A stretch of DNA of 64,000 nt from Sphaerolaimus hirsutus (lineage: Eukaryota > Nematoda > Chromadorea > Monhysterida > Sphaerolaimidae). The notes under the pieces were generated by a model. That model ran no database searches and was not told where the DNA came from. It saw only the letters and a program-made list of their open reading frames with translations. This document shows positions 1,699-48,800 of the stretch, piece after piece. The DNA lies in NCBI GenBank assembly GCA_964036195.1, contig OZ038460.1, positions 2,669,504-2,733,503 of the forward strand, in the 5' to 3' direction. The stretch's first letter is position 1; the number at the start of each line of letters is the position of its first letter. The position numbers and the translations under genes were made by a program.

Positions 1699-2669
1699 TA
1701 GGGCTCGAACTCGACTCGACTCGACTCGACTCGACTCGTGACTCGAGGGTAAAACAGGGTACCGACTCGACTCGTCTGACTCGACCGGAAAAATAAGGCC
1801 CAAACTCGAGACTCGAGGTTTTTGCCCGACTCGACTCGAAATTTTGGCAAATTTCGAGTCAGGGTTTCCATTGAATAATGTCCTAAAATATCAATTTTGA
1901 TATGAAATTTTAAACCTAATTTTCAAAAATTTTGTGCGCGAGCGCGCATTTCCGCAACAAATGCGTGATATATTGTGGATTGGCTTGGCATAAATATGTA
2001 TTGAATGGTGTTAAAACTCAAATTTCGTATTGCCGTACAATTCTACATAATGTGCATGTGCACGCTAGTTTAGCGCCAGATTTTGGTAAACTCATAAATT
2101 GGCTTTGATAAAACGCATTTGAGTTTACTGAAATGAGTTATTCTTAATGCCCATCAACTGCAGTTGACAGATACATCATTATGGTAAATTTAAATGTGTT
2201 CAAAGCTGATTTATGGGGTTACCAAAATCTGACAGTAAACTAGCATGTGCAGCACCACATGTGAAACAGACACACACCACCTCAAATGCATTGCACAATG
2301 TTGGCACTGATCCAAAAAAATGTTGTAAAAGATTTTCCATCCCTGGACCAATTTTATTTTTGCAACTTTATTTGTAGCAACATGAGTGATAAAAAGTTCT
2401 ATTTTTGTTTTATCTTGGTATTTAAATGAACTGTTGGCATTTAGACTCCAAGTGTGTGTGAAAACATTGGTAGAGAAACCAGTATCAAAAATGACTGCAA
2501 GGGTCATACCAAAAAGTAACGCATCCGACTCGACTCGAGACTCGAGATTTTTGCCCGACTCGACTCGATCTTTCACTGGCTTGCTCGACTCGACTCGCCG
2601 ACTCGACCAGCAAAAATTTGAAGTTGCGACTCGAACTCGAGTTTGAGAAAAATCGAGTTTCGAGCCCTA
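1699..2669. mobile_element. hAT-like element with GACTC satellite arms
   Basis: It starts TAGGGCTCGAA, ends TTTCGAGCCCTA, and is flanked by TATGTATC at 1691-1698 and 2670-2677. It is inserted in the element 1301-2741. Both arms carry GACTC/GAGTC pentamer arrays in mirrored orientation (about 1705-1860 and 2525-2650). The interior has GCGCGAGCGCGC at 1936-1947 and a separate palindromic repeat near 2052-2262. Confidence 0.9.
2052..2262. repeat. Palindromic MITE with CTGCAGTTGAC core
   Basis: The arms are complementary: CATGTGCACGCTAGTTT at the left and AAACTAGCATGTGCA at the right, with GGTAAACTCATAAA-type blocks inside. The centre holds CAACTGCAGTTGAC. Related copies, judged by eye, are at 24739-24938, 36200-36430, 52764-52966, 56580-56750 and 62920-63110. 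Confidence 0.65.
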
Positions 2670-2924
2670 TATGTATCCCTCGGGAGGAGCGATTTGCTAT
2701 CTATCCAGTTCCCGCGAGGGCCAAAATCTTGGAGACCCCTGATTGGAGCCGAGAGCGCCATGGCGCTTTTTGGTTGATAGCGCCAATGGCGCAAAGCGCT
2801 AGTGACAGTCTCCGAGCTAGTAATAATTGGGCCAAAATTTGTATGACATATCGCAGGTAGCTGAACGATTTACCGGGCGGTGACCTGAACTGAACTATTT
2901 ACGGGGGATTTACGTGCCTGTGCC

Positions 2925-3096
2925 TGGGGCCAGTTCCGCAAAATGAGAAGTGAGAAGTGAAATCGCAAAGGCGAACTGAAACGGCTAGTGCATTGGCAAA
3001 AGCGAAATAAAATTAAAATAAAAAGTAATTTTTCTCCGCTTTTGCCATTGCACTTGCCATTTCACTTCTCATTTTTCGGGGCTGGCACCAGGCCCC
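2925..3096. repeat. Short palindromic repeat
   Basis: Inverted arms run from the GGGGCCAG side to CTGGCACCAGGCCCC, with AATGAGAAGTGAGAAG on the left matched by CACTTCTCATTTTTC on the right, and GCAAAAGCG matched by CGCTTTTGC. It is non-coding and MITE-like. A target duplication is not evident. Confidence 0.55.
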
Positions 3097-3476
3097 ACCG
3101 ATAAATAACGCTAGGTGTTACAGCAATATTTCGCAAAAAACGCCATTGCGCTTTTCCATCACTAGTTATGGAATTGTTTATCAACTTTGAATTATTGTTG
3201 CTTTTTGTTTTCGAGTTATGGCATTCGTTAAAGTTGTATTTATGTGTGATAAACCTCGAAAAATGAATAAAAAATAATAAAAATGAAATTGAATTTCGAT
3301 AACCCGATCTTATAAATACTTGTAGTAGTTTAAACTATTTACTACCGCGCATGCGTCTAGATATTTAGATTTAAATATTTAGATCTTTGGCCATGCAAAT
3401 ATATTTTTTAAATCTCCCGACAACATTTTTTTTTTGTGAAAAAGTCCTTCATAGGGAATATTTATAAAAAACTACA

Positions 3477-6400
3477 ATGCCGCCGAAATCGAAGGAAGCT
3501 CCAAAGCTGCCGCCGCTAATTGGTCGATTGGGCACCAATTTGAAGGTGGGCGGAGTTACCGGATTTTTACTTTTGTTTTCCATCTCGGGTCTGTACTTCT
3601 GTACTGGTTATTCTACCGTATGTTTGATATTTACATCGGACAAAAATACCGCTATTCTGATCTCTAAATTATTATGTTTATTCATTGGGAAAATTCATAT
3701 TTAAGAATCGACAGAAAAAGTATTTTTATTTGCTTTTTGAAAATCTAGGAAAATACTGAAATCATCGCATTAAGGTATATTTCTATTTTGGTTTTATGGT
3801 TTTCACGCTTTCACATTTATTTTTCACACCCAAAAAAATCCTCAGGTCGGCATAGTGGGCGTTCCCAACGTGGGAAAATCGACATTTTTCAATGTGCTCA
3901 CGAAAAGTGCCGCGTCGGCGGAAAATTTTCCATTTTGCACGATCGAGCCGAACGAAGCCCGGGTGCCCGTTCCCGATGATCGATTCGATTGGCTGTGCGA
4001 ACATTATAAGCCTGCCAGGTTTGTGGGGGGGGGGTTGTAGATTTGAATCCCTACCAGGGTAAATCCTTCCTCCGGAGGGGTGGATAGCCGACAAAAATTT
4101 CTGGGGGTGGCGGGGGTTGGGGGTGCACTCAGGGACGTATCCAGTATTTTTGAGCGGGGGGGGGCTGCTTGTTTACGGGGGCCGGCAACGGGGGGGGGGG
4201 CTCAGCCCCTCTCCCTTAAATTTTTCCCTATGTAAGGGCGGAAAAGCGTTTTGGCGCTAGCGCCATACAAAGGCGCCACGCCATGGCGCTATTGGCGTTG
4301 GCGCCAACGCCAGGAACCGCTTTATATGTATGGAAATATGCATACATATGCAGCGAAATTTGCAAAAATGTGTTCATTTCCAAGGATTTTGGTTTAAAGT
4401 GGCCGATCCACTGAAAATACACTGCATGGGGAAGAAATTGCGCGCTTGCGCGCAAAATTTTTAAGAAACATCGAAAAAAAATATAGGAAAAGTTGCATTT
4501 TCCGGTACTTTTTAGGTCTCACACCGGGAAGGGGCCCCCCCCCCCGCCCCCCCCCCTGGATACGTCCTTGGGTGCACTGATAAGCACATCTGCCCGTTAC
4601 GCACATTTGCCCGTTTTTTTCACTTTCAGATATGAGTGAAGTGAAAAAAGTTCACTAATGTCATTGCGCAGCGTTTTTCACTTCACTCGTATCCAGGGGT
4701 CTCCAGGATTTTGGCCCTCGCGGGGGCTGGATAGATAGCAAATCGCTCCTCCGGAGGGATAGATAGCTGAAAAAAATTTCTGGGGGGGGGGCTGGCGGGG
4801 GCACAATATATAGGCTTTTTCAAGGTTAAGAAGGCAGAAAGGGGAAAAAATCGCTAATAATCAGTTAAAAGTAGCCAAAATTAGGTATAAAATGGCTAAA
4901 AATAGGTATATAACCATGTATATAGCCGGAAAGCACGATTTTGAAGGTGAAAAACTATAAAAAGGTGCGAAAATTGGTGATTTTGAGCGAAAATTGGGGC
5001 AAAATTTCTCAAAAACCACTCCAGATAGATAGATAGCTGAGCGATTTGGGGGGGGTCTTTGGGGGTAGTAGCCAAAAATTTTGCCTCGGGATAGATAGAT
5101 AGCTGAGCGGCCTCCGGGATAGATAGATAGCTGGCCGATTTGGGGGGGGGCAGCCCCCCCCCCCCAGCCCCCCCCCCCTAGGAGACCCCTGCTCGTATCT
5201 GAAAATCACTTAAAAAAGTGTCAAGCGAAAAAAACGGGCAAATGTGCATAACGGGCAGATGTGCGTATCAGGCATGCCCCGCGGGGGTTCACGGGTGTTC
5301 AATTATATGCTTTTTTGAGGTGTAAAGGGCAGAGAATAGTAAAAAACGCAACAACAAATAAACATTAGAAATGGGTAAGCACCAGGGGTCTCGAATGGGG
5401 GTGGGGGTTACTCCCCAAACCGCCCAACTATCTATCTATCCCGGAGGCCGCTCTATCTATCTATCGCGTAGGCAAAATTTTGGGCTACTACCCCCTAAAC
5501 CCCCCCCCCCCCCCAAATCGTCCAGCTATCTACCTATCTGGAGCGATTTTTGAGAAACTATACCCAAATTTTCGCTCAAATTCGCACTTTTTCCTACCTT
5601 TTTATAGATTTTCACTTCCAAATTCATAGTTCTGGTTCCTGTTTGCCTATTTTCAGCTATTTTTAGTACTAAATTCTCTTGTATACCATTTTTGAGCTAT
5701 TTTACACCTACATTTAGCGATTATTCTCCCTTTTCTTCCTTCTATGCCCCGAAAAAGCCTGTATATCGAACCACCACAACACCCCCCCCCCAGAAACATT
5801 TTCAGCTATCTATCCCTCCGGAGGGGCGATTTGTTATCTATCCAACCATTCAGAGCGTCGAAATTCAAGATACCCCTGGTAAGCACATAGCTAAAAATAG
5901 CTCAAAATAGGCAAAGCATTTGCGGTTCAATTTGCTGTTCCAAGCAAATCTCGGAGTTGTATTTTTTGGAAAGTAAAATATATAAATTTCGTTAAAAACA
6001 GTCCAGTTCCATCTTGTGTACAAAAACCCTTGAATTGAACGATCCTTCAGGAAAATTTCTGTCGAAAAAATACCCCCGCACCTCGAATTAACCCCCGAAA
6101 ATTTTCTGGGTATTTCTAGTACTTGAAAACGTATTTTACAATTTTTTTAAATTACCTCCAGTGAGCACTGATCAAAAGTAATACACCGAGTTCAAAATTG
6201 TGCCCAAATCAAAACAAAACAGCGTAAATACAGACTAAATTTCTCACATTTCTATCGGTATTCAATTTGAAATTATATTTGCAGTAAAGTGCCGGCCTTT
6301 CTGAACGTGGTGGACATTGCGGGACTTGTAAAAGGCGCCAGCGAGGGACAGGGTTTGGGAAATGCATTTTTGTCCCACATTGCCGCCTGTGATGCAATTT

Positions 6401-9400
6401 TCCATTTGTGTCGTTGGTTGGGGGGCTTTTTTGCTGTTTTTTATTGAAGCTGTAAAACAGCTTTTTTAATTTTTTTTATTTTATTTTTTATTGGATTGTA
6501 AAATCAATTGCGTTCCACCCGCACACTCTACAATGAAATCTACCATATCTGTCTGACATTTTACAGAGTGGTACTGGTCCCCTATCATGATACAAAAAAA
6601 ACGACCGAAATTCCCCTTGGGGTTCGAAGGGGATCGACTTTTCGGGATCGGAATTGTTTTTTTATTTCCTGGATCGGGATCTGGATTAGGATTTGAAAAT
6701 TTTGCGGATCGTCGTCGGCATTTTGAATTTGAAAATTATTCGGGATCGGGATCGGGCTTCCGGGTTGGAATCCCCGAATCCGAAAATTATCGGTAAAATT
6801 TCGGATCGGGATCCCGTTTGAATCCCAACCCCCCTCCCCCCAAATATTCAGGCGCGTTCGACTGTGTCGAAGTGACACATGTCGAAGGTGAAGTCGACCC
6901 AGTCCGCGATCTTTCAATCATCTCTGACGAATTGAGACTAAAGGATATCCAGTATTTGGCCGGGCCTCTGGACAAAATGCACAAAACCGTCGGCAGGGGT
7001 GCCGATAAACAGAGCAAGGCTGAATATGTTCGTTTTTTTTGGGGGGGGGGTCTTCTTATTTGATGCCTGTATACCGGTATTCGAAAATTTTCGGTACCGG
7101 TGGATTTGTGGTTGCAAATGGTCTGGCCTCCGGTAAACGGGTAATTTCCGGTAAACTTACACTTCTACCAACAATGGCCCTGCGCACACTAGTTGCCAAT
7201 AACGTAGGATGTCAACTGGGCAGACTGAATTCCATTCAGATTTTAGTTGACGGGTAGCCGAAACCGTGTTTAAAGTCACATGGCGTACTGATTCCTTTTC
7301 CACATTGCCACATGTGCACTTGAAAAGAGTCCTGTTAAAAACTGTCCTAGAACAAAAGCCAATTGTCACCGCATAACCAGAATATGTAATTTTTGCAGGA
7401 ATTACTCATGAAAGTGGATGATTTGTTGCAAAATCAAAAGCGACATGTGAGATTTGAAACTTGGAACGCGAACGAGGTGCGTTTCATTTTGTGGAATAGA
7501 TAAGGTTGCGACTATCTTTTTATTTCTAATTAAAATTGATATTCATACTCTGCTGACATCGCACTTCGTATGGGAAACCTTAAATTATTGTAGGATTCTG
7601 CATACCTATACTTTGCGATCCGCCGAGTATACCGATAAATAAAATTTTGAAAATGTTTGGCAGTGTCTATCTGTTGAGAAAAAAGTTCTATTTTTTGAGA
7701 CGCAAAAAAAAAAATAAGCGTAAAACTCTTGACTATTCGGTGTAATGGGACATGGTAATTACGGTATGTGATAAGCGGATAGTTAATCATTTTTCGCTAC
7801 ACATTTTCTTGAATACGGGACAATTTGACCCAAAACATTTCACAAAACTATTCAAATTCGGTTTATTTTTTTACCATGTTTGGAAAGTTTCTATCAAAAT
7901 ATTTTTTTGCACCTTTAATTTACGACCCTTTTTCAGATTGAAATTCTGAACAAGCATCTATTCTTGACGTCGAAAACAGTCGTCTATCTGATCAACTTGT
8001 CACAAGATCATTATTGCAAGAAAAAGAATAAATGGTTTGTTGTCGTCACATTCACACTTATACGTTATATCTGTCACTTTTCGTGTCACTTGTCCACTTT
8101 AAGATTTTTTGGGGGAGTGACAGGGACCACCCCCCCATTAGCACCCACTCCCCCAAGCTACCATTGAGTGTAGCAGCATAAATAAATGTTCCAAACTTGA
8201 ATACAACGAATCAGGTGCCAATTCCCCATGGAGACAAGCAGGGCCGTATCCAGGCTGCAGCCCCCCCCCCCCCTTCCCGGGGCGAGACCAGAAAGTGACC
8301 GGAAAATGCGACTTTTTCAACGTAAGCGTAAAAAAGTATTGCGCGCAAGCGCGCATTCTTCACCAGACATAAGGTGTTTTCATCAGATTTGCTCCATGTG
8401 GCCGCAAATCATTATAAATACACTCAATGTTGTCCTTTTTGATGTTTTGTATGTATATTTACATACATGTACAGCGTTCCATGGCGCTGGCGCCAACGCC
8501 AATGGCGCCATGGCGTGGCGCCTACTAATGTCGCCAGCGCCATGGCGTCCTTCCGCCAGTATGTAGCTAAAATTTTAGGGGGGGGGCTGGCCCCCCCCCT
8601 CGCCGGCCACCGTAAACAAACAGCCCCCCGCTCAAAAATCCTGGATACGTCCCTGGAGACAAGTGACAAGTAAATTTCATACATTTCTACCTACTTACGT
8701 TTATTTTACTTGCCGAACACTTTATTAGTTTGTATGATTTGTCCCTTTGAATTGCCACTTGAACACTGAAAGCTAAGTCAAAGAAAGGTAACCTACAAAA
8801 TAACTCATCAATTATCTTGGCACTTTTCCAATTTTTCATTGTTTTTCAAACCACAATCTCAAACGAAACCTTATTTTAAAACTGCCAGGCTTGCGAAAAT
8901 CAAAGCTTGGGTAGATGAACATGACCCGGGCGCAATTATAATTCCATTCAGCGGGGAGTTGGAACAAAAACTGGTCGATATGCCCGAAGATGAGAGACAG
9001 ACGTTTTTGAAGGACATCGCTGCGCAGAGGTTTGTTTTGTTTTCTTATTTATTTTTTCTGTTTGTTTTTTTACTACACAATTGGATTTGTGAATATTTAT
9101 TGTGATTGGATTGTCGCTAGACGAAAATGTTGATTATTTTGATAAATAACGTGCCGTAAATTGTGCACCAAATTCACTCATAATGTGGGCTGGGCGGCGT
9201 AATGTTATTAAGGAACATAGTTATGATGGAAAAAAAAACTTTCATTGTGCTTATTGTTCATAACCATTGTTTATTTTTTAATCTGTCAAAAAGCATCGAA
9301 AAAAATTAAGGGTAAAACGTTTTTACGCAAACTCCTGCGCCATTGCACCTCACAATGAAATCTACCATATCCCATCTGTACAAAAGAACAAACTTAAAAA

Positions 9401-12400
9401 AATTATCATGACATTTTATCACATTGCTATTAGGGTTGGCCGATGTTTTTTTTAAACGTTTTTTATTTAAAAAAACGTTGTTTTTTTAAAAAAAACATGA
9501 CGTCCGAAATGTTTTTTTTTTTTAACCATCGACCGAAATTTTTAGTACTAAACACTAGGCATGTTGCAAAATTTTTGCGCGCAAGCGCGCAATTTCACAC
9601 ACAAATTGACATTGGTGGTTGTTTTAATTGGTTTTGTGGCATTTTTAGTATCAAAGTATCCATTTCTATGTGCTACCATGGGTTAATAAGCCGTCATATG
9701 TTGCTGTAGTATATAATATTGAGGTAATGTGCTTCCATGTACCTCCACAGTGTGTAACTTCACTCCCAAAGTAACAACCTCCTTTTATAACCTTGTTTGA
9801 TCACTATTCCGTGCCAAACTTTACCTGAAGTCACAAACATTCGACTATAAGGCGATATACGAACAATATGTTGACGAAAAATGGATATTTTTGACACAAA
9901 TAACCACTTATAATGCTATCCCATGGCTCCACAGACATTATATGGTTATATATAACATCACAGAGTATTGCCACTGTCTGATATACCTATATATGTTGAC
10001 ACGCAAGGTCATATCTGGGAGCTTTAAATAAAAAACGTTTTTTATTTTAAAAAACGTTGTTTTTTTAAAAAACATCGAGTTAAAAAAAAACGTTTTTTTT
10101 CCAACCCTAATTGCTATACTCGGCAGACACGATACTCTACAAACAGATAGGAGTTATGTCTTGGGCTGGCAGACGGCCAGCCGAGAACTTATGGAAGACG
10201 TGGTGAAGACGACGTGATGGCGAGAGATGATGATGGCGACGAAAGTGATCACGTCATGGTGGAGTGTTTCCTCCGGGAAAATGTACGGCGTTATGTCATC
10301 CGAGTATACTACTTTGGGTGAATCTGGTGCAATTTTTATGTGATTTTATTCATAAAAGTGTGGTATCATTCATTATAAGGCGATCTGTCTGTCCAGTTAA
10401 AATATTTTATGCAAATTCTTAAAACGTGCAAAAACATTAATTTCCATAAATCCATTTTTCAGTGCTTTAGAGCGAATTATAAAAATCGGATACAAGGCAT
10501 TGAATTTGGAATATTTCTTCACTGTGGGTAAAGATGAGGTGAAAGCTTGGACTATTCATGTAAGTTTTTCTATATTTTTTAATTGGGCTGTTTTGGTCCT
10601 AATAAACGTTGTGAAGTGAAATTTCCGGTAAAATGCGAAAGTACTAGTGAAACGTACAGTGAAATCGCTCCAGGCGCCAACGGTGCCATGACGCCATCCA
10701 AAAAATGGCGTCATGTCGCTGGCGCCCTTTGGCACCATTAACTGGTGCCAGCGCTATGGCGCCATTCCGTCACTAGAAAGAACATATTGCCGGTTAACCT
10801 GACATTTTACAGAGTGTGGTACTGGCCCCAAGCGCCATCATGTGTAAGTAAAATTGGTATATAGGGAAAGTAAACTAAAATTGTCCAGTACCTTTGGGAA
10901 CTTTAATTGTCACAAATAAGTTTTCTCAACACTTGACTTAGCACTTTTCTTGTCACTTGCCGTTGGCACATTTTCAAAAAATTCCGCAGCACGGTACAGT
11001 GGCTCCGAAAGCGGCCGGTAGGATTCATACGGATTTCGAAAAAGGTTTCATAATGGCTGAAGTCATGAAATATGCGGATTTGAAGGAAGCTGGCAGTGAA
11101 CCCGCTGTGAAGGTAAGATTTTTTACGTTTGTCCATTTTTCGAGGCGGGTTAGTGTTTTTGTTTGGGCAATTTGGAGTCTTTCATTTGTCAACAATTTTG
11201 TCATGTTCCAATATCAACTTGCCCCGCGTTTTTTCGACAAATGGGCATACTTTATACTTTTTCTAACTTGCCACTTGTCCATTTGCGGTCCTGAGCCGCT
11301 CCCAGACCATGTAAAATGTCAAATGTCATGCATTGTGTCTCAAGTAATGTAAAATGGCCTGAAAAATGTCACAAAACTGGTAAAAAATATAGTCAACTGG
11401 TGGACCATTTAAATGGAAAATTGACTACATCAATTTTCGAAATATTCTCATGTGCAAATTGTCAGCCCAATCTAGCTAAAACTTTGTGTGAATGTGGGGC
11501 CAACATTTCTTTACATTGTCCCCAAATGGCACCACCCAGCACCCCCCTGGTCAGCCGTGAAAGCCTTATATATATTTTTTCGATTTTTTTTCTGGCAAAT
11601 ATAAATGGAAAATTTTGGAATCCCACACAGAATATTGCTGCGGGAAAGCGCGCTGCCATTTTTGGCATGCTGCCAACACAAGCATTGGATACGCCTGTGC
11701 TGGCAGTTTTTTGATGAAAAAAATATCACTAATTGGTCACTCAGAGCCGCACAAAGGTTGCAGGGTGATTTTTACCTGCTGCTGTCCCCCCACTGCTGCT
11801 GCCTCACAAAAATCCATCTTAAATTGCAGATATCAGCCACTTCATGACATTCAAACATATTAAGAACTTTATAAGTTCAAACATTTTGATTGTGATTGCA
11901 AAAACCACAAATTTACACTTTCTTGGAATGACCTCTTCATCTGTCTGGCCCATTTACACAAAATACAGGACACATTTCCAGTTGTCCCCTGGTATATCTT
12001 TGACAGATAATTGTTGCCTGAATTCAATGGGCACTAGCATTTAATTATTTGCATGCAGAGGCCGGTCACGCTTTTACGGTAATGCTGTCTTTGAACAGTG
12101 GTATTTCCACTGATCGCCATAAATGCAATCTTTGAGCAACAATGTAGTGCAGGACCAGCCACATGTTGCTCATGACACTTAGGAAGCCAATCCTGGCCAC
12201 CATGTGCTGTATCATTAGCCTGGGGCTGTGTAAGACACATTAGTTCCAATATATGTTTTGTTCAAAAAAATATTTCAGGTTTGATCTTCAGCAAAATTTT
12301 GGTGTGGGGATTGTGTGGGTTGTGAGGGGGTGGAAAAGTTGCAGGAAGTTACCATCTCATATGTCCAAAAAAATCTATGGCCTAAACCATCCCCAAATTA

Positions 12401-22430: not shown

Positions 22431-22759
22431 TAGTGATGTGAAAAGCGCCAGAACTTTGGCGCCAAGCGGCAAAGGCGCCATGGCGCTTTTCCGACCGTTA
22501 GCGCCAAGCGCCAATGGCATCTGGCCAAGCGCCAGAAGCGCCATGGCGCTTTTTGCTTTGGCGCTAGTGCCAAGCGCCAGCGCCAGGCATTTTGTTCCTG
22601 GAGCCGGTCAGAAATAGCGCCAAAAGCGCCATGTCGCTTTTCATAGGCATGGCGCCAAGCGCCAATGGTGCCACAGAAAAATAGCGCCAAAAGCGCCATG
22701 GCGGTTTTTGTTTTGGCGCTAGCGCCAAGCGCCAGCGCCATGGCGCTTTTACATCACTA
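22431..22759. mobile_element. hAT-like MITE, TAGTGATG family with GGCGCC satellite
   Basis: It starts TAGTGATGTGAAAAGCGCC and ends GGCGCTTTTACATCACTA. The left duplication is CTCAGCTA (22423-22430). The right copy is split by the later insertion 22765-23566: CTCAG at 22760-22764 and CTA at 23575-23577. The body is almost entirely AAGCGCCA/GGCGCC/CCATGG repeats. Confidence 0.88.
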
Positions 22760-22764
22760 CTCAG

Positions 22765-23566
22765 TAGGGTTGGGACGATATGACTTTTCGATATCGATAT
22801 TCGATATTTTTTTCTGAAAGTCGATATTCGATATCGATACGATATGGACCCTCGATATTTGATATGGAAATATGCTCGATATTTGATATCGATATTTCGA
22901 TTTTTTCGATATTTCGATATTTTTGTACAGTGGGGCATATTGTATTTCCATTTGGACACAAACATGGTTGATAATCTTTTTAAATGAGGCTCACAACAGT
23001 TGAAATGAGGTAATGAAATAAAAACAGGATGAATCGAATAATATAAGGTGAAAAATTATTAAGCAAACACTTCAGGTCATAGTTGTGACTAGTGGTGGCT
23101 GGCTTTTTACATTTTTAAAAGGTTGGTATTTTAAAATAAACGGCCAAATTTTTGAGCCATGCTGCCATGCAAAGGTTTGGTGAAATGGTTTCCTTGTGGT
23201 GCAGTTTGCTGTGTTAATATCATATATTTTGTATGGATGTGTATACATTACCCTTGATATCCTACTTTTGATAGCTCAATGTGAAAATAACATGGCATTT
23301 ATATATGATATATTATTTTGTGCATTCATAAGCATACGTGTTTGGCTGCAGCATCCACTTTTTGTTGGCTTCAGCCATTTTTATGGGATCACAAATACCT
23401 CAAAAAGAATACCAGAATATCGAAAAATATCGAAAAAATGGTCGATATTCGATATCAATATTCGATATTTTTTCAAAATTTTCGATATCGATATTCGATA
23501 TTCTATATGAAAAAATGGTCGATATCCGATATTCGATATTCGATACGATATATCGTCCCAACCCTA
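22765..23566. mobile_element. hAT-like element with CGATAT satellite arms
   Basis: It starts TAGGGTTGGGACGATAT, ends ATATCGTCCCAACCCTA, and is flanked by CTACTCAG at 22757-22764 and 23567-23574. Both arms are runs of CGATATTCGATATCGATA-type repeats. It inserted across the right end of the TAGTGATG element, so it is the younger of the two. Confidence 0.92.
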
Positions 23567-24938: not shown

Positions 24939-25535
24939 CCCAATGATACAAGTATTTACGCATCAGAGCGGTACACCCGCTAGTTGGAATTTGAATGTCA
25001 ACTGGTTTATACACTCAGAGTATAGTTCACGTGTAGCTGAGCGTTCTTCCAATTAATGCACTTTCCGTAATATTTATTTTCAACGTGTGCAATTGTGATT
25101 TAGATTTCTCTACGAAACGTGAGCTGAAATCTGAGTTAACATACCAAACCAGTTGACATTCAAATTTCAACTACCTAGTGTGTGTAGCGCCAAAACGACA
25201 AGTGTTTTTTACAAAAGTAATTATTTGTAACCTATAAATGAAAACACGGAAAACAAATGAAATTTTCTATATTCCTACTAACGATGGCAAACCCTACAAA
25301 AAAAAGTATTTAAATTTTTAAGCGTTTTTTCCGAAATGAATTTTCGAATTTTCGAATTTTTCCTGAAATGAATTTTCGAATTTCGAATTTAATTTTCGAA
25401 TTTTCGAATCTTTTTTGGCAATTTTCGAATTTTTTTGGCGATTTTTTGAATTTTTTCAAATAATTTTCGAATTTTTTTGTAAAAAAATTGAATCTGAAGT
25501 TTTAAATGAAGAATTTGGACTGTTTTGGAAGTGGC

Positions 25536-25754
25536 TATACTCGGCAGATGTGATACTCTACAAATAGATATGATTTATGTCTAGGCTGGCAGACAGCCAA
25601 CCAAAAACTTGTGAACCGACTCCCCACTCCACTCCACCTCATCCCAACTCTGAACCGGTTCAGTGTACCGTAAGTTCACTGCCAACTGCAGTTACGACAT
25701 CATGATGGAGTGTTACCTCCAGAAAAATGTACAGTGTAATGTCGCCTGAGTATA
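25536..25754. mobile_element. TATACTCGG-family MITE
   Basis: It runs from TATACTCGGCAGATGTGATA to GCCTGAGTATA. It is a diverged relative of 10115-10308 and 61999-62215; it shares GATACTCTACAAA, GGCTGGCAGAC and ATGGAGTGTTACCTCC-like blocks. Confidence 0.75.
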
Positions 25755-25853
25755 GCGCACTGAGCGTAGTGCATACAGTGCTAACTTCACAAGATACAGG
25801 TAAATACATTTCAAACCACTCTTCTTTGATAATGTCTTTGATCACATCTCTTT

Positions 25854-26085
25854 TATACTCCAGTAACATTACACCACGCACGCGTGGTTCCCGCTGGAAG
25901 TGTGCCAAATATTTTTATAAAAAGTTGAAAGAATTCATCTCAGTTATAACGTGATACATTAACTTATTCACAACAATGATTTTTTCATATTTTATACAAA
26001 AATAGCATGCTTTATGATTATTGGCACGCTTCCAACGTGAGACATAAATCAGTACGACGGCAGAGTATCATGTTCACCGAGTATA
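25854..26085. mobile_element. TATACTC MITE, CACGCGTGGTTCCCGC subtype
   Basis: It runs from TATACTCCAGTAACATTACA to CACCGAGTATA. The subterminal TTCCCGCTGGAAGTGTGCCA is partly mirrored by TTGGCACGCTTCCAACGTGA. The same subtype occurs at 58742-58991. Confidence 0.75.
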
Positions 26086-26738
26086 CTGATGTGCAGTTCC
26101 TATGGGCCGTCCCAGACACCTGTAAAATGCTCTGTGAAATGTCAAATGTTATGCAAATTGTCTAAAGTCATGGAAATGCTGTGGAAAATTGCAAATACTT
26201 TAACCATTTTCCTGGGCATTTTCATAACTTTTGACACTTGCATGACACTCCACATTTTACAGGGCATTTTACATTTCAACGTTTTTGGAAGTTTTTTTGT
26301 TTTGTTTCGCTTTTTCATACGCACCTCGTACCAATTGTCAATTTATTGAGCACGTTGAACCCAAGAGTACGTTTTGTTGCCTTGAATTCCCTGAAAAATT
26401 CGAAAAGTATTTTCGAATTTTTGAATTTTCGAATTTTCGAATTTTTTGAAAAATAAATCGATTTTTAAGTGTTTTTTCTAGGGGTGAAATAAAAATTCGA
26501 AAATTATGAAAAAATTCGAAAATTCGAAAATGTTTTCGAATTTTCGAATCTTTTTTTGCCATCGTTAATTCCTACAGAATCATTTTTTATTTTGCTCATC
26601 GCATCAGGCACATTTCTCCCATTGGGTGAATCTAGTGGACAATTTTTCATCACCTAATTGATCAAATTATGGTAAAAAATTATTATAGCGTTCCGTCTGT
26701 AAGTATGACAAATTATTGGCACCCGGACCCGGCATGAT

Positions 26739-27850
26739 TAGTGATGGAATGGCGACATGGCGCTGGCGCCCTTTAATGGCGCCAAAGGGCGCCAGCGCCA
26801 TGGCGCCATTGGCGCCCTTTTCTCTGGCGCCTGGCGCCCTTATTTTGAATGGCGCCCTTGGCGCTTGGCGCCAATTTGGCGCCCGGCGCCATTGTTTTGA
26901 ATGGCGCCAGATATGGCGCCAAGATGCCGTGATGAGAGTTGATTTTTAGCCATTTTTAAGTGCCTTATCTTCGGAATTATATGATTTTATGGTATTTAGC
27001 ATTTTACCTATGTAATTTCTTGCTAACATTGAAAGTTTTGGTTTATGTTCACAATTTTTATTCCACATAAACTGCAAATCTTCACACGCTTCCACACTGA
27101 TATTCACATGAGTGCTGTTCACATCAGTTTTGTGACACTGAAGTGAGAAAACTTCATTTCTGTATGCTAGCATGTACATGTAATAATAAATGAGTGATCA
27201 TAAAATTTTTTTTGAAATATCAGTCTCAATGCATCTTATCCTCTGACCTATTGTAAACACTTTCCTGACTAATTAATTCATTTGTATGTCACAAAAATTT
27301 TATTTGAAGGTGGCTAAAATCTGTAACAACTCAGCTAAATTTGTTTTTGTATTTAGAAATCACCAGCTCAACCTGCCTCTTGTATTCTCACTGCCATTAC
27401 AAATCTGTGTTCACAATAGACAAAATAATTTAGACATAAGGTACACTGCAATAGTATAAAATTGTGAAAATTCTGGCAGAATGTATATTCCGCTTAAAAT
27501 ACTTGCCATTGAAAAAGTGCATCTCATGGGCAGAAAATAAAAACACTGATCCCCATACAATGTTTGAATATAGGTAAATAAATATAGATAATATTCATGA
27601 TAGGATGCAGTTTCTTGGTTGTGGCAGATCACTTTTACGCTTTTACATAAATCAAAAAATTGTATAACACACTTGCTATTCTACCACAACACTACTACAC
27701 AACGTCTCTGTTCTTTGTTACCTGCTGAAATAAGGACTTTTATCGTTGGCGCTATTTTGGCGCCCTTTGGCGCCCGGCGCCATTATTTTGAATGGCGCCA
27801 TGGCGCCATTGGCGCCTGGCGCCATTTTTCCTGGCGCTTTTCCATCACTA
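26739..27850. mobile_element. hAT-like element, TAGTGATGG family with GGCGCC arms
   Basis: It starts TAGTGATGGAATGGCG, ends GCGCTTTTCCATCACTA, and is flanked by GGCATGAT at 26731-26738 and 27851-27858. GGCGCC-rich arms (about 26755-26930 and 27745-27840) enclose about 800 bp of ordinary AT-rich sequence. Small ORFs in the middle show no transposase motif I recognise. Confidence 0.9.
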
Positions 27851-27989: not shown

Positions 27990-30900
27990 ATGCGCAATTT
28001 GCGTCAAAGAGTCATCGAAGATGTGGACTGCGCCACATTGAATTGGTTCAATCGGCCGGTGGAGAATAAGTTTTGGAGCGATTATACCAGGTTGGTTTTG
28101 AGTTTTGACGTAAAAATTTTGCGTAAATTTTGACAAAAATTATCAGTTTTTGTACTGCGCGGAGCCTATGCCTAATTTAGTCTTCTGATAGGAACTTGAT
28201 TCATGACATCAACAATTCATATTTACAATGAACATTTTTTTAATAATTGAAAAGTTTTTCTTTGAACAGCAGTTGACGGAAATCAGAAAATCAGAAATTA
28301 TGCACAACTGTAAACTCAACCATGTTCAGTTGACCACTCTGTTTTATCGGCAACGATATTCGTACGCAGGCCGCGCGCAACGTATTATCAGTTCGTCCAA
28401 GAGCAGTTCGCGCCCGCAAACATTCTTTGCCGGTCAGTTGACTAACTCACGGGGATGAGAAATAAAAGGGTTGCCTTAAGAAATAAAACGAGTTGCCTAA
28501 TTTCAATACATACCTAGGTCTCGCTTCGAATCTTCCTGTCAAATAGATTTGCATCAACAGTACCGTATTTGATCGAATAATTCCCCTGGGGAATTACTTT
28601 TTCGTCAGACAAGACAAGATCTATTCAAGAGGGGAGTTACCTATTATTTCGTCAAAACTTTCAACCATGTTTCTATCAACTCAATTCATGAAATATTCCT
28701 TATTAACAAAATAACATGCCATTTTTGTTCAGATTGGACACAGCAAACTTATCGCATGCCCAAACAGGGTATTTAAGTATTCGAGATCAGGGCAATATTT
28801 TTTCCCAGTAATCTAACAGAGAGGAGTTATTCGAGGGGGGCGGATTATTTGAGCAAGAACGTTACTAATTATTTGAGAAGACCATGTAATATTTTCTGAA
28901 ACAAGCTCTCCGTGATTTACCCATTCAGCGTGGGACAAACCAAGGGACAAGTGATCTATCCCGGAATGTGGGGGTCTTATTCAAGCACCTAGGGTGTCAA
29001 AAAAATTTTTTACGGAAAACGGAAACGGAAAACGGAAAAAAAAGTTGCACTTGGCGGAAAACGGAAACGGAAAAAAAATTTCAGCAGCCGGAAAACGGAA
29101 AAAAAGCCGGAAAAACGGAAATGGAAAAATCTAATTTGCACGGAAATGGAAAAACTTGCTGAAATTTTCCCAGAAAATGGATAAAATTTGCTGAAATTTT
29201 GCTGGAAGTGGAAAAAATTTGCAGTTATTTTGCTGGAAACAGAAATTTTTTTACATCATTGACAATCTGCATGAATTTTTACCAGTTTGGCTGATCAGAA
29301 AACAGTAAGTTGAGCCAGAAAAAGGTAAAATGAGGCAGAAAAATGGAAAATTGAGGCAGAAAATGGAAAAAAGGCAGAAAAACTGGAAATTGAGGCGGAA
29401 AATGGAAAAAAGGCGGCAAAACTGAAAATTTAGCCGGAAAACGGAAAATGAGCCGGAAAAACGGAAACGGAAAAAAATGTTGCCGGAAAATGGAACGGAA
29501 AACAGAAAAAAATTTGCCTGCGGAAAACGGAAACGGAAAACGGAAAACAGAAATTTGACACCCTACAAGCACCCCATAAAAAACCGCCCAAATAAAATAC
29601 CCACCCAGAACCGCCAGCTCGTCCACACTGAAAGCTGATTTCGACGCGCGCTACGACACTGGCGAACTGCGCCGCAGCTCCAGCTACACTTCCTTGGCGC
29701 CGAGTCTGGGCATGGCGCAGGAGGACAGACTGGCGCCCAGGTATGGCGCCATCACCAGTCCTTACAGGTGCCAGTCCCGGACCAGGTGAAATGGCCTGTG
29801 AAATGTAAAATGTAATGCAAAGTGTCAAAGTCATGGAAAATGCCATGCAAAATGGCAACCGAGTTGCCATTTTGCAGGGCATTTTACATGACTTTTGACA
29901 CTTTGCGTGACATTTTACATTTTACAGGGAATTTGACAGGGTGTGGGACTGGCACCAGGATGTACTCCTCGAAGACTTATAACTGGCGCACGGAGAATAA
30001 CGAGGCGAGCAAAATTTGCGCGCATAAAAGGAATTTGTATGAGAAGAGGGTCGGGTTGGTTCTTCAAATTTATTTTTGAAGTCAACAGACTTTTCATCTT
30101 GAAATTCAATGTAATTAAACAGAAATGAAATACCTACACATTGAGGCTTATGCTCGCTGCTCATCTAAATCTAATCGCTAATATACTTATCTAGATCCAC
30201 CCGCTACTCATCTACACCCACACACGTGTGCACTGTGCCGCAATTATTATAGGTATAACTCGGCGGACAGCACACTTAGTATGAAAACCTACCATAATTT
30301 AATGAATAATTTTTTTTGATAAATTTCGCAATTTATTATTTCATAGTAAAAACGAAATATTATGATGAAAAAATGTAAAAGTTTTGGTTCATTATTCAGA
30401 TGGGTTATGGTAGGTTTTTATACTAAGTGTGATGTCCGCCGCGTATATGTTATTACTCCGCTGCACGCAAGTATATTTTATGTTTATGCCAATCGACAGT
30501 GCGCAGTTTTGCAGTTTTGTCTGACGTCTGTGGCTGTGGAGGTTCAGATGAGTAGCGGGCAGATATAGATAAGTGCTGGGACTAGATGAGTATCGGGTTT
30601 AGATGAGTACCGGCACAGGCTTGATTGTGCCCAAACACTAGGTTTCAATCAAAATTTCTGACCAATTTGCAATGAACGCATTTGAGTTTACCGGAATGAG
30701 TTGACAAACACCTCAATCCTGTAAACTCAGATGCTTACAAAGCTGATCAGTTTTCAAAATTTCAGTTGAAAACCAATTATTATATATTTACAAATAGTAT
30801 GAGTATACCCTTGAAGCCCCTAACCCTCGAACACCCCCCCCCCAGCCGAATTCACCGTTCAGAAGCGCGTGCAGCCCTCTCCGGATATACACCCCCCTCA

Positions 30901-31510
30901 GTGCGCGAATACAAGTCGCCCTATGAAACACCGATAAATGCCAGCGCCAGGCTGCATATTTACAGGTTGGCCAGTTGACGGGCTGTTTTAGTTGACGGAA
31001 ATATTTTTTTACTTTGGGTGCCGTTGCCCTGTGCGCACCAGTTATCTAATGGAATTTTGAAAGATATGGAATGCTCATGATTCAGCTTTGAAAGACATTT
31101 CAGTTTACCTCGTTCGGTATACCACACGAAACTACATTTACAGTCATTTTACACATTTAAATTAAATTTCTATTTTACCGGCGGTGAACTAGTGTGAACA
31201 TCACCAACATACTACAGGCTCCATCATGAACAAAACGCAACCAAAAATGCAAATTCAAAACCCTCGAAAACCCTTTCCCAGGCCAGTGTCCCAAACGCGT
31301 CCGCACTTGGACTTCACATACTTTAGCGGCCGACTTCTTGGCACCGAGCGAATAATGCCCTTCCGCTACCGGAACTATTACGGTATAAATTATGATGAAC
31401 GGTACCTGAATAGACTTCATTACGGTACCAGGACCGAAAGGACCGGTTATATGAAAGCTTTACCCTATGTGAGGACTGTGAGTAGGAGTAGCCTACTTGT
31501 AGGGTATTAG
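27990..31510 (+). CDS. Small basic Tyr/Arg-rich protein, unidentified
   Basis: A five-exon model: 27990-28090, 29609-29740, 29959-30036, 30846-30965 and 31282-31510, 219 residues, every intron in phase 2. The start ATG follows an in-frame upstream stop. Protein features: N-terminal TLNWFNRPVENKFWSDYTR, a Ser-rich stretch, MYSSKTYNWRTENNEAS, GYTPPSVREYKSPYETPI, then a Tyr/Arg-rich end with PFRYRNYYGINYDERYL. No signal peptide or membrane segment is apparent. It resembles small structural or filament-associated proteins in composition (insect myofilin/flightin came to mind), but I cannot confirm a family. Weak points: the exon 3 donor (TTT|GTATGA) was chosen to keep phase, and a strong donor ACT|GTGAGT at 31478 could skip the last ten codons and lead to a further exon. 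Confidence 0.6.
28990..29565. mobile_element. hAT-like element with CGGAAA satellite arms
   Basis: It starts TAGGGTGTCAAA, ends TTTGACACCCTA, and is flanked by CAAGCACC at 28982-28989 and 29566-29573. The arms are ACGGAAAACGGAAACGG repeats that decay toward the centre into GGCAGAAAAT-type units. It lies in intron 1 of the Tyr/Arg-rich gene, ending 43 bp before exon 2. Confidence 0.92.
29766..29957. repeat. Palindromic TGTAAAATG-family MITE abutting exon 3
   Basis: The ends are GGTGCCAGTCCC and GGGACTGGCACC; inside are mirrored AAATGTAAAATGTAATGC and TTTTACATGACTTTTGACAC blocks. It fills most of intron 2 of the Tyr/Arg-rich gene, and its right end is one base before the AG of the exon 3 acceptor. 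Relatives by eye: 11290-11360, 12655-12760, 20440-20600, 22070-22225, 23830-23950, 26100-26290, 35095-35350, 39625-39815, 40180-40355. Confidence 0.75.
30254..30447. mobile_element. TATA-CTCGGCGGAC palindromic MITE
   Basis: It runs from TATAACTCGGCGGACAGCAC to GATGTCCGCCGCGTATA, with AGTATGAAAACCTACCAT mirrored by ATGGTAGGTTTTTATACT. It lies inside a larger mirrored block (about 30165-30590) whose arms repeat GATGAGTAGCGGG / CCCGCTACTCATC. Both are in intron 3 of the Tyr/Arg-rich gene. Confidence 0.75.
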
Positions 31511-32137
31511 ATGGGTTCAAATGGGATCCCGATCCTGAATCCAAATAATTTTTAGGATTCAGCAATCCTAATCCCAAAATTTTTAAATGCGAATCCCGAT
31601 CCCGCAAACTTGAAATGCGAATCACGATCCTGAAAAAAGTTGCCCAATGACGTTTTGCACTGAGAAATGTGAATGGCATTTTACGCCACAATTTTCAGTG
31701 CAAAATGCAATTTGTGGTATCAAAGTGTGCTTTTAGACATTTTTTGTGAAGATATCCGGAAGAACCCTGAATACCATAACTTTGTTCAAACTCCTGAAAC
31801 CCTAATCCCGAAAACTAAAAAATCCTGATCCTGAAAATTAAAAAAAAACAATACTGTTCCTGATCCTGAGAAGTTGATAACGTTTGAACCCTAGTAAATA
31901 TTAGTAGGGTGTAGGGTGAACCTTTGAAGTGGTTTTTAGGGTGCCCTTTGGGTATTTTTGGTGACATTTTGACAAATCTGGATACTTTGGAAGTGGTTTA
32001 ATGTCACTGTTTTTTATTTACACAAATTTTTATTGATTTAATTTATCTACATGGTCCGGCTGAAAAGTCCCCGGGCAGTGCTTGCCATTCGCGCTAGGGG
32101 TAAGCTACGGTCATAAAATTTTCACACGTTAATATAT

Positions 32138-33891: not shown

Positions 33892-34952
33892 TAGGGTTGG
33901 GGAACCGAACCGACCCGAACCGAACCGAACCGAGAACCGAGCACTATTTTGGAACCGAGAACCGGAACCGAGCTTGAGAACCGAACCGGAACCGAGAACC
34001 GGCACTTATACCCGGAACCGAAGTAAATACCCGAAAGAACCGAAATTTTCTAGGAATCGTAAAGTTTTGAACAGCGTTTTTTCAACACCTATTTACATCT
34101 AATCCTTTAAAAAGCAGCTGAAAATCTGGTGCGTGTTCAGAATTGCAAAATTCATTTGTTTGCAAAATGATTGCGCGGGAGCGTGTAATTTCACATATAC
34201 TCCAGCGACATTACACCTTACAATGAAATCTACCATATCCCACCTGAATAAAAGAACAAACAAAAAAATTTCATCATATTTATCAAATTGCTTTGATAAA
34301 TATGATGAAATTTTTTATGTATGTTCGTTTATTCAGATGGGATATGGTAGATTTCATTGTAAGGTGTAATGTCGCTGCAGTATACACATTATCACTGGTA
34401 GTAGTTTTCATTGGTTTTGTGGCAGTTTTAACCGTAGTTGGCAAAAGTTATTTTTGTTTGTACTTAAAATAATACGCATACTCACTCGCGTACTACATAA
34501 ATACATTTACGTTTCTTCCAGAAAAAAATACCAGTACTCATTTACTTGTGTACTTTTTGAAAGTACGCGAGTACAGAAAACGTATATGTTTGCTTTTACA
34601 CTTTTTTAAATACCAGTATTATTATAACAACTCTGATTTCTGCATTCTACCATGAAATTATAAGCTGTGATATGCTCCTGTAGTATGAAATATCCAACCA
34701 ATGTACTTACACATGTAAATTTGGGTATATTGTTTTTCTGTTGTTCAGCCGATTATTACCCGATACCCGGTTATTTTATTACCCGGAACTGAAATTTTGA
34801 TCATTTTAGAACCGAACCGGAACCGAGTTTAAGAACCGAACCGAGAACCGGAACCGGAAATTTTCAGGAACCGAGAACCGATACCCGAACCGAAATCTTT
34901 TGGAACCGAGAACCGCGAACCGGAACCGAAAATTTTGAAATTCCCAACCCTA
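33892..34952. mobile_element. hAT-like element with ACCGAA satellite arms
   Basis: It starts TAGGGTTGGGGAACCGAACC, ends CCCAACCCTA, and is flanked by AAATATGG at 33884-33891 and 34953-34960. GAACCGAACCGG repeats fill both arms. The interior resembles 9431-10109 (a diverged TTGCGCGGGAGCG hairpin near 34171 and a CATTGGTTTTGTGGCA block) and is itself interrupted by the snapback element 34196-34384. Confidence 0.92.
34196..34384. mobile_element. Near-perfect snapback MITE
   Basis: It runs TATACTCCAGCGACATTACA to TGTAATGTCGCTGCAGTATA with arms of about 85 bp that pair almost without mismatch; the arms include TACAATGAAATCTACCATAT. The dyad is near 34290 (ATCAAATTGCTTTGAT). Half-copies with AATGAAATCTACCATATCCC occur at 9355, 59340 and 61120, and more diverged ones at 6533 and 21018. 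Confidence 0.88.
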
Positions 34953-45800: not shown

Positions 45801-48800
45801 GGGGTTGAAATACGCGTACGGTATTTCCTCGAATTAGCCCCGGTGGTATATTTTTTCAGTGAAAATTTTGAGTGGTGGTTCTTCGAGGGGTGTAATGTTT
45901 CAGAACTCCCAGTAATTATTTGTTGTTTGTAACGTAATACGCAAACGTATTTAGAAATAACAACAATAACCGCCATGTACGAGTCTATATACTTATATAT
46001 TTCAGTAGATATATAGAGCATATATAGTGGATAAATATGTATAAAGATGTTATAAACCCTGTTCTAACGTAACAGTCATTATTTTTAACGTGTGTTCTAC
46101 TTACACAGATCACAAACTGAATTTTTTGTCATTACATCCGCTTTATATTGATTTCGGGTTGGTGTATTTCGAGGAAATGATAAGCCTAACAAATAAGCAG
46201 TCATAGAAGACCGCCTACGCAAATACATAATGGATTGTAATGAATTTCGAAAAATTATTACAAACACTTTTAAATACTTTTTTCCGGTTAGATTCGAAAA
46301 CTCGGATACGGGTGCCTTGAAAAATGCGTGTAGGATCACTATTGAAACGGGAAAATAGCGGGTTCCATTTCAAAGAATTAAATCGACATTAAATTGCCCC
46401 GATGCAATATTTTCGGGAATAAATACAAGTATTCTCATATCGTAAATTTTGAAACAATATGTAATATCGAAATATCGAGTTTTTTTAAAAAGTATCGCCA
46501 AAAAATCGCACCAACACGCAAAGTATCGCACGCAATTACCGCACCAACATTGAAAATTCCAAAAACTCGGGTAGCTCGACAAATCATCGGACAAACAACA
46601 ATAACACACAAAACTTCCCGAAAAAATTCTCCGAAAACCCACCAGCATGTGCAACAAATGCACAAATTCAATCAATAATGTAGCCAATGTGAAGCACAAA
46701 TCGGCATAGTACACAAATTCCATGCGACTTAGGTTTCTTTCTCTACCTTGTTCATATAAAACGGCTGCGTAGCGTAGAGCACCGTAGACAGATCTGCGTA
46801 GAAATCCAGAGATTTGCGTAGAAATTGAGTGATTTGCGTAGAAGTTGGTGTTAGGGTTCAAACGGAATTGACCCGTCGGGGTAGGGATTGGCATTTTGAA
46901 TTTTTGTGATCGCGACCGGGATTGGGGTCACGGGATCGGTATAGAAGGTTTTTCTTTAATTTTCCACAAAAAAACGTCTAAAACACACTTGCACCCCAAG
47001 TGGCATAAAACAGGAGAAGTGGCATAAAACGTACATACAGGATATTTCCGTTCACAGTTGGGAATTTCACAAAATTGGGAAGTTGTGAAATTTAGGTTCA
47101 CAGCGGAAATTAAAATAAAAAATCAATTTAACCCCCCCCCCACCAACCTAACCCACAGAGTCAAGGCATCGGCAGCCAACAGTGCCCCGTAGTTGGTGCC
47201 TAGCGTGGTGGCCATGCAGAAGGCCACGCCCAGCAGGGCGCAGGCGCACCCGCAGCACGCAGCCATCAGCACCAGCGTGCGGTACAATTGCTGCCTGCCG
47301 CTGGCTGAGCTCGCTGTGGACACCACCTGGGGGGGATGGGGGGGGGGGGTGAAAACAAGTTGTTTTGAGGTTTGTGAGGTTGAAACTTGAAAGTGGAAAG
47401 GTTGTGGCAGCGCTGAGTTCAAGACTGTGTGCCAGTGTGGTGATTTGAATCCAGCTTTCGTTTTGACCAACGCGCAAACTAGAAGAGCGGGTTCGACTCT
47501 TACCAATGACAGTGCAATTTTTGCACTCTATTTTGGTAAACAACTTTTTTTAAATCACAACGGCAAATTTCAGACAGTGTAGAATTTCTTTAAAAACATT
47601 AACATTTCGATTGCAAATTTACATGATGATTTCACACAAGGAAATACAAATCCGCCAACAATAAAAGAAAAACGTCCAAAAACAAACATATTTGATTCTA
47701 TCCTGTGCCAAAAGCGTCAAATAATACAAACATCCGACGAGTACAAACCACAGAACCCATAGCATTACTTCAGCGGCATCTTGTACATTTAAAACGCCAC
47801 AAATCACGGCAAATTTGAATATGGCAAAGTTCCAAAAACGGTCGTGAAGTTGCTGCAAGGGGGGGGGGATTTTGTTTGATAGTAATTTGTAAATCTGTAA
47901 ATAAATGAAATTTGTAAATATAACACTTGACTAGGGTTCAAACGGGATTGACTTTTCGGGATCGGGATCGGGATCGGGATTCACTTTTTGAGATTTCGGG
48001 ATCGGGATCGGGATTGGGGTTTCGGGATCGGGATCGGGATCGGGATTGGTTTTTTGAGATTTCGGGATCGGGATCGGGATCGGGATTGGCCGGGATTGGG
48101 GTCACGGGATCGGGATCGGGATTGGGATAGGCATTTTTCCGGGATCGGGATTGGGTTCTAAGGATAGATATTTTGGCCATTTTTCTGGCATTCACAGTTG
48201 TTCATAAAAGTCTCAAAACACTGTTGGATGCCAGAAAAGTGGCATAAAATTGACACTGGGGGTTTGCATCCACTTTTTTGCATGCAAAAACGTCATTATT
48301 TCACTTTTTATAATTTCCACTAATTTTTCCGGGATCGGGATCCCGGACTTGGAAGTTTCTCGGGATCGGGATCGGGATTTGAAAACTTTCGGGATCGGGA
48401 TCGGGATCGGGATTGGTATTTTTGAGATTTCGGGATCGGGATCGGGATCGGGATTGGGGTTTCGGGATCGGGATCGGGATCGGGATCGGGACTGGTAAAT
48501 CCCGGAATTTCACGGGATCCGGGATCGGGATCGGGATCCCGTTTGAACCCTACACTTGACACTTGTAAATTTGTTTATCCTTTGACATATCACTTAATAA
48601 ACCTAAATCCACGTAAATATCACTTCCCACTTTTCTTGCCATCTGCCTAAATACTTGCGAATTTGGCATCAGAAATACCAAATATTCCTCGATGTCTTTT
48701 TAAAAAAAATCAAAAGTCTCAAGTTTCCAGAACTTTAAAAAAGTTTAAAAAATGACCATCATTTCGGCGGTGCGCAGCTTGCCGAACACGAGCCAGCGGG

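Follow-up and report, generated by a model that had tools for sequence, protein, structure and literature searches.

Binding of short subterminal words by a transposase has been described for several hAT transposons. The Ac transposase of maize binds AAACGG repeats cooperatively (PMC3260210), the BED domain of Hermes binds subterminal repeats (PMC10368747), and the Herves transposase binds CG/AATTCAT as well as a probe of four direct copies (PMC3143072). Proteins derived from hAT elements mostly differ in the word they recognize, which usually contains CGG or CGC, and four hAT-encoded proteins match the subterminal regions of their own element (PMC8097297); here and below, published systems are described from the accessible parts of the papers cited. 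Here we analyse a window of 64,000 nucleotides from the nematode Sphaerolaimus hirsutus (the whole stretch C16:2669504-2733503, from a genome of 348 Mb in 762 contigs), with nine named hAT-like elements whose ends are packed with a short repeated word inside short inverted tips. The genome holds thousands of such small cut-and-paste transposons with word-packed ends, and in one tip family the same base has changed in all or nearly all units while the spacers between them were retained. A switch of words within an otherwise unchanged layout was not found described in the accessible literature on hAT elements, BED domains and subterminal repeats, on Galileo and foldback elements, or on coevolution and concerted evolution (most subscription papers lay outside reach); PMC2872659 and PMC8449440, in their accessible parts, concern other miniature inverted-repeat transposable elements.

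Concerted word change between retained spacers

Outside the window, ~297 kb was read as 81 loci (L-numbers), some of which overlap one another or the window. The first-pass annotation had regarded each repeat word as private to its family. This did not hold, as one tip may carry several words and one word may stand behind two tips: TAGGGTTCAAACG is paired with CGGGAT, CGATAT and CGGGAC, TAGGGTTGGG with CGATAT, ACCGAA and ACCCGA, and TAGTGATG with GGCGCC and GCACCG, and the CGATAT elements behind two tips align over 501/617 columns. Its suggestion that the word diversifies between families was supported.

The clear case is the CAGAGTTG tip family, whose subfamilies AAACGTA, AAGCGTA and AAGTGTA have common spacers and different words. 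Complete copies are found at L035 1138-2403 (target-site duplication, TSD, GCACCATG), L063 739-1387 (TSD GTAAATAG) and L015 3072-3845 (TSD GCATGAAG) respectively. The units lie between the spacers. Reading inward from the tip, most 3′-end units point the other way, which again makes them direct within the element. Base states were counted unit by unit for this family only, on class consensuses of five, four and two copies (5′ end) and three, three and two copies (3′ end) for the three words in the above order. The A to G change is present in 15/15 units (7/7 + 8/8), as compared with 61/310 other columns (35/167 + 26/143); the 15 exclude one 3′ unit for which the AAACGTA class has a gap. At the next base, C to T is present in 15/16 units (7/7 + 8/9) vs 46/329 other columns (25/167 + 21/162). 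Judged from these consensuses, the family has undergone two word switches. The unit table omits 2/14 5′ ends (L017 and L020_3713, both array-less) and 6/14 3′ ends with other or broken layouts, and the decayed L073_5448 was placed in no word class. At L017 208 and L020 3713, the CAGAGTTG tips are followed by CAACGACAA-type tandem repeats in place of a word array.

Across the genome, the unit pattern GGAAARYGTAARYGTAARYGTAAATAC occurs 1816 + 1776 times (3,592; control 0); such patterns allow R/Y states only, and units decayed otherwise fall outside the counts. Among the first 100 sites, which are three-unit runs, 42 read AC, 24 GC and 22 GT throughout and 12 are mixed, i.e. 88/100 runs are homogeneous where 13.1 would be expected under independent units. 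Units 4 and 5, which flank a 24-base spacer, are jointly matched 921 + 934 times (1,855; control 0). Of the 100 listed places of this pattern, the 42 up to 12.72 Mb were used; in this first listed part of the genome, 28 of the 33 elements with all five units listed carry a single word, vs 1.4 under independence.

Mosaic copies bear on a different route, in which the new word entered one unit and spread by gene conversion or array recombination. Two of the 33 five-unit elements read AC.AC.AC.AC.GC, and the 12 mixed three-unit runs fit such spreading as well, although they reflect single-site decay in part. Conversion tracts, however, usually carry the spacer along, and the spacers here differ between units yet stay in place. 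We consider spreading of this kind unlikely as the cause of the switches, but rate it next after the enzyme-driven change set out below, alongside which it could act. Two mosaic runs, G000:C1:10110894 (GC.AC.GT) and G000:C1:10131869 (GC.AC.GC), may be intermediates, conversion products or decay.

Alternatively, the concerted change could stem from mutation rather than selection, for instance through deamination at CpG sites or the action of an editing enzyme. Both CAGAGTTG changes are transitions, and in the core of the GACTC family the rate of change at CpG sites was ~4.7 times that at other C or G sites (140/720 vs 222/5428 cells). The A to G change is not on a CpG, however, and deamination also yields G to A via the other strand, so that mixtures of ATG and ACA arise, as seen in the older copies L003 and L043. 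The C to T units of the AAGTGTA class, 7/7 at two 5′ ends and 8/9 at two 3′ ends, come from three elements, and CpG decay as the origin of AAGTGTA was rejected on these unit states; a mutational cause of the switches in general appears very improbable to us. In the GACTC arrays, 154/1963 CpG cells changed (other C or G cells, 81/2349), so that array CpGs are kept better than core CpGs, with the reservation that cells of related copies are not independent; this could reflect selection for intact words in moved copies, lower methylation or recent gain of units. CpG is present in 14 of the 16 words listed (ACTCG, AACGTT, CGATAT, TTCGAA, CGGAAA, ACCGAA, CGGGAT, CGGGAC, ACCCGA, GGCGCC, GCACCG, AAACGTA, AAGCGTA and AAGCGATT). 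The rule that every word contains CpG was thus dropped and is retained as a tendency, without a significance test.

In a second tip family, TAGGGTTGGG, the ACCGAA and ACCCGA ends align over 148/195 and 135/183 columns with numerous differences within the words, which probably represents one further switch. The alignments of CGATAT with CGGGAT ends (136/199 and 127/191 columns) and of GGCGCC with GCACCG ends are gappy, and word change in these two pairs is only suggested.

Direct arrays as a standing part of the sampled families

Exact 8-bp target duplications, previously noted for most of the insertions, were found for all nine named elements (Table 1). The reported target preference of Hermes is nTnnnnAn. 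All nine carry inverted short tips, drawn from the set TAGGGCTCGA, TAGGGTTGG(G/C/A), TAACGATGGC, TAGGGTGTCAA, TAGGGTTCAAACG and TAGTGATG(G/T)A, and the hAT-like start T/CA(G) is present in TAGGG, TAGTG, TAACG and CAGAG tips. The family words crowd near both ends, or throughout in the case of the 329-bp element. Counts in the own element vs the 56,560 bp of the window beyond all nine elements were 27 vs 53 for ACTCG, 10 vs 44 for AACGTT, 29 vs 22 for CGATAT, 16 vs 9 for TTTTCGAA, 24 vs 31 for CGGAAA, 21 vs 12 for AACCGA and 46 vs 24 for CGGGAT; GGCGCC or AGCGCC occurs 26 and 45 times in its own elements vs 231 times outside, this word in particular being common elsewhere in the window. Tandem doublets were tested for six families (not GGCGCC or AACGTT), and eight of nine were confined to the nine elements. 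The ninth, CGGGATCGGGAT, has 28/30 occurrences inside them, and the other two, at 6741 and 31604, probably belong to decayed relatives of the CGGGAT element.

The first-pass annotation described the arrays as inverted, or mirrored, between the two ends of an element. Dense word arrays in both ends were indeed found, but their inverted orientation was not: in 23 of the 24 elements counted, non-palindromic words lie mainly on one strand, which is the same for either half, and the remaining element (L038) is a tie, while palindromic words such as GGCGCC, TTCGAA and AACGTT have no orientation and could not be scored. Moreover, the first 100 (CGGGAT)4 sites form 35 clusters, none of them mixed-strand. 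Eighteen are two-block C1 clusters, with blocks > 200 bp apart, and all 18 are single-strand, which together with the strand counts rules out mirrored arrays; the other 17/35 clusters are uninformative on orientation. The tips are thus inverted and the arrays direct, and the mutual inversion that characterizes arrays of the Foldback/Galileo type was absent from the 23 same-strand elements.

Arrays are also a standing part of the families in sampled copies. Copy tables were made for GACTC, GGATCG, ACCGAA and CGATAT, in each of which the best 40 candidates were scored and the window copy is counted; the queries contain the arrays, which under-samples array-less copies and favours copies with words. 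From 2902 first-look GACTC candidates, 40 copies were scored. Thirty loci were taken further, of which L021 and L029 were dropped, having no matching end pair, and each of the 28 that were bounded and aligned has 5-25 words at its 5′ end and 2-10 at its 3′ end, with a core 1.7-5.2% from the consensus. For GGATCG (1210 candidates), 40/40 scored copies match positions 1-621, and exact 8-bp duplications and standing arrays were found at 12/12 loci. For ACCGAA (4235 candidates) and CGATAT (3000 candidates), 35/40 scored copies each match positions 1-1061 and 1-802 respectively.

A less biased test is the pairing of arrays with tips. The 13-base tip TAGGGTTCAAACG occurs 7752 + 7762 times in the genome (15,514; reversed control, 5 + 3 = 8) and (CGGGAT)4 2316 + 2225 times (control 0). 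Within C1:296967-3127048, 31/32 (CGGGAT)4 sites and 7/8 clusters lie inside paired exact TAGGGTTCAAACG tips, which span only 0.65% of this interval; for the eighth cluster, C1:2908861, no exact tip is listed nearby. Arrays free of termini, which would have pointed to chance association, were therefore not the rule for CGGGAT, the word for which this was checked, and (CGGGAT)4 in C1:0.30-3.13 Mb does not behave as a dispersed satellite or microsatellite.

Could the arrays nevertheless be simple satellites, expanded by slippage from the tips, with different seeds giving different families and with no role in movement? The number of units does vary, mostly by whole units. Of the 26 GGATCG alignments whose length is not 621, 22 deviate by a multiple of 6; GACTC varies in its outer run, with 5-25 words at the 5′ end and 202/260 inserted bases within the first 60 consensus columns. 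In some families the tip already contains the first unit. The earlier proposal that the unit often extends the tip held for TAGGGTTCAAA + CGGGAT and TAGGGTTGGGA + CGATAT, where both ends show it; GACTC and GGCGCC show it in part and ACCGAA at one end only, whereas CGGAAA, TCGAA and AACGTT do not show it. Slippage, however, copies spacer and unit together, whereas in the CAGAGTTG family the units have one base change in common and the spacers have stayed. Growth of satellites out of the ends may account for varying unit number but leaves word switching unexplained: at both ends, and whatever their orientation, the units show this common change, with the spacers between them kept. The presence of words at both ends of all 28 GACTC copies, from a sample that favours such copies, also speaks against arrays without a role, and we regard this possibility as decidedly unlikely. 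Across these 28 copies, unit number shows no correlation with divergence at either the 5′ end (Spearman 0.04, p=0.85) or the 3′ end (0.15, p=0.46), and array length was rejected as a clock.

Table 1. Array-bearing elements of the window and two probable relatives; word counts are forward/reverse over both ends, and all target duplications are exact.
Position	Strand	Feature	Tips	Word	Target duplication	Word counts	Remark
1699..2669	+	hAT-type non-autonomous element	TAGGGCTCGA	ACTCG, direct at both ends	TATGTATC	24/3	
9431..10109	.	hAT-type element	TAGGGTTGGC and TAGGGTTGGA	AACGTT, palindromic, with T/A runs	ATTGCTAT		
22431..22759	.	hAT-type element	TAGTGATGT	GGCGCC/AGCGCC	CTCAGCTA		duplication with nested 22765-23566 set aside
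22765..23566	+	hAT-type element	TAGGGTTGGGACGATAT	CGATAT	CTACTCAG	22/7	
25279..26567	.	hAT-type element	TAACGATGGC	TTCGAA, palindromic	ATTCCTAC		
26739..27850	.	hAT-type element	TAGTGATGGA	GGCGCC, palindromic	GGCATGAT		
28990..29565	+	hAT-type element	TAGGGTGTCAA	CGGAAA, direct	CAAGCACC	24/0	
33892..34952	+	hAT-type element	TAGGGTTGGG	ACCGAA/AACCGA, direct	AAATATGG	21/0 (AACCGA)	
47932..48552	+	hAT-type element	TAGGGTTCAAACGGGAT	CGGGAT, direct	CACTTGAC	43/3	
6617..6827	+	probable decayed relative of the CGGGAT element					limits approximate, read by eye
31510..31893	-	probable decayed relative of the CGGGAT element					exact tip at 31893; left limit approximate, remainder by eye

The CGATAT element is inserted within the target duplication of the adjoining 329-bp element, so that CTCAGCTA becomes visible only when the later insertion is set aside. 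Ends like those of the AACGTT element occur at L067 397 and L072 3769, with a variant at L081 2340, and relatives of the 26739-27850 element occur in sampled flanks, some with GCACCG as their word.

Transposase remnants and the proposed explanation

The assignment of these elements to the hAT superfamily was borne out by the duplications on all nine of them, by the T/CA(G) tips and by coding remnants for four tip types. PF05699, the hAT dimerisation domain, has 28 matches in the genome and none in 14 control genomes. Nineteen lie within complete tip-and-duplication elements: eight in TAGGGTGTCAA/CGGAAA elements, seven in TAACGATGGC/TTCGAA elements (two on one small contig), three in CAGAGTTG elements (L035, L038, and L034 via the longer locus L072) and one in a TAGGGTTCAAACG/CGATAT element whose duplication has one mismatch. 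The other nine are outside complete elements, six with one such end and three with none. The matches are remnants of 73-151 amino acids, not intact genes. The L073 match belongs to a CAGAGTTG element that is itself enclosed by a TAGGGTTGGG element; L034 and L035, with one-sided ends, had been candidates for TAGTGATG and TAGGGTTGGG hATs and were rejected, as the domain lies in CAGAGTTG elements instead.

At L072, a 6-kb element (1144-7149; TSD CCTTGGCG, tips CAGAGTTGTTA) carries PF05699, and two of its exons, joined at GT-AG, give a BED finger (zf-BED, 23.5 bits vs a Pfam cut-off of 20.6). When seven pieces were searched against Pfam, five L072 exon pieces matched no family and the PF05699 pieces of L072 and L073 matched. 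A weaker alternative end pair for L072, 380-7967, has 10/12 tip bases. Six of the genome's eight BED-finger matches (L074-L076, L078, L079 and L081) lie within 23 kb at G000:C1:7466186-7488779 and may mark a host gene, or a cluster of genes, of hAT origin.

We infer that the transposase binds the word and that selection by the enzyme drives its change. On this reading the elements are non-autonomous hAT transposons. At each end, the catalytic domain would cut the short inverted tip, and the dense array of one word behind the tip would give the matching transposase many sites on which to land with its N-terminal DNA-binding domain (a BED finger plus a Hermes-type domain); many weak sites would jointly address the enzyme within a large genome. 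Upon a shift in enzyme preference, the word would be replaced at all sites, because it is what the enzyme reads, with tips and spacers staying in place, and a new transposition subfamily would result.

Several observations weigh against this explanation. The copies of a subfamily stem from few masters, and the genome-wide unit counts therefore reflect linkage and abundance, not independent events. Two CAGAGTTG ends (L017 208 and L020 3713) and the CAGGG-type 1301-2741 element have no word array, i.e. arrays are common but not universal among the elements with 8-bp duplications here; likewise, 2/16 words lack CpG (AAGTGTA, and the AAACAC word of CAACGATGG elements). Among the 28 PF05699 matches, no transposase was found for the GACTC, TAGGGTTGGG, TAGTGATG, AACGTT and CGGGAT families. 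The BED finger is linked to one element only, L072, whose ends are the least array-like, and a PF02892 search gave eight matches, six of them in the one C1 cluster and none placed in an element. In the described systems, some Ds1 elements remain mobile although they lack AAACGG, and Ds-like elements that contain it did not move when tested (PMC3260210), the right-end repeats of Hermes made no BED contact, and a Hermes donor with two inner left-end sites mutated kept ~70% of its activity (PMC10368747). These Hermes and Ds results lowered our confidence slightly; that the arrays are docking sites of the transposase, and that word and enzyme preference change together, still seems to us probable as an explanation of the whole.

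More tentatively, and falling somewhat short of what we would assert, the genome may be a natural record of partner change between transposases and their sites. From a layout of ~15 sites, the site sets would have moved in step to a neighbouring word, leaving systems that no longer read each other. One tip family, with its two switches, shows this clearly; for a second it is likely and for others it is suggested, and hAT families may diversify here in this way. How a protein and its many sites change specificity jointly is a long-standing question, for which thousands of insertions would hold a record of the initial and final states and of some mixed ones, with the spacers as an internal control. 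The natural word pairs could serve in tests of BED-finger specificity, and word change offers a possible reason why hAT families within one genome need not mobilise each other.

Neighbouring elements and comparison with known systems

The window contains further elements of other build. CAGGG-tipped elements with 8-bp duplications lie at 1301-2741, 4130-4570, 4694-5191 and 8239-8655; the last three have G or C runs inside their ends, and the first, itself without an array, encloses the GACTC element. The ACCGAA element is nested within a Foldback-like element at 32880-36032 that has mirrored 17-bp arrays (CGGCCGTAATGTAGACC) and looks Mutator-like; a 10-base direct repeat, GTATATTAAC, flanks its G-rich tips by eye, but the scripted search found no such duplication. 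Two long arrays of a 59-bp satellite (15497-16373 and 18360-19863) are mirrored, near GCAAGAAGTCGACAAGTCCA repeats on both sides, and no target duplication was found for them in the scripted search.

Among known systems, Ac/Ds of maize resembles the word-array elements in its T/CAGGG tips, its 8-bp TSD and the several copies of a CG-containing hexamer near its ends that bind transposase cooperatively (PMC3260210). The elements described here differ in that each window element carries 10-46 words, most of them on the same strand, and in that related families have different words on one layout. Hermes shares the recognition of short subterminal repeats by a BED domain and the asymmetry of left and right ends, but its site is 4 bp long, with 17 and 14 copies in the two ends, and no series of families with swapped words is described in the accessible part of that paper (PMC10368747). 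Its left-end repeats 2-7 are termed antisense and repeats 1-5 of its right end sense, and making the two ends symmetrical leaves little or no activity (PMC10368747); how closely this resembles the direct arrays found here depends on the Hermes reference frame. Herves likewise has a subterminal word, CG/AATTCAT, at both ends and a transposase that bound the four-direct-copy probe, with the difference that this is one word in one element (PMC3143072). In Galileo/Foldback, tandem units in long ends hold sites for the THAP domain of the transposase, and subfamilies cross-react weakly or not at all; these are P-superfamily elements with long inverted repeats, unlike the short tips and direct arrays seen here (PMC3688188). 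A further parallel is with the hAT-derived CGG-binding proteins, most of which have their own word and of which the hAT-encoded four match their own subterminal regions: there the proteins were measured, whereas the present genome provides the DNA side of such a record (PMC8097297).

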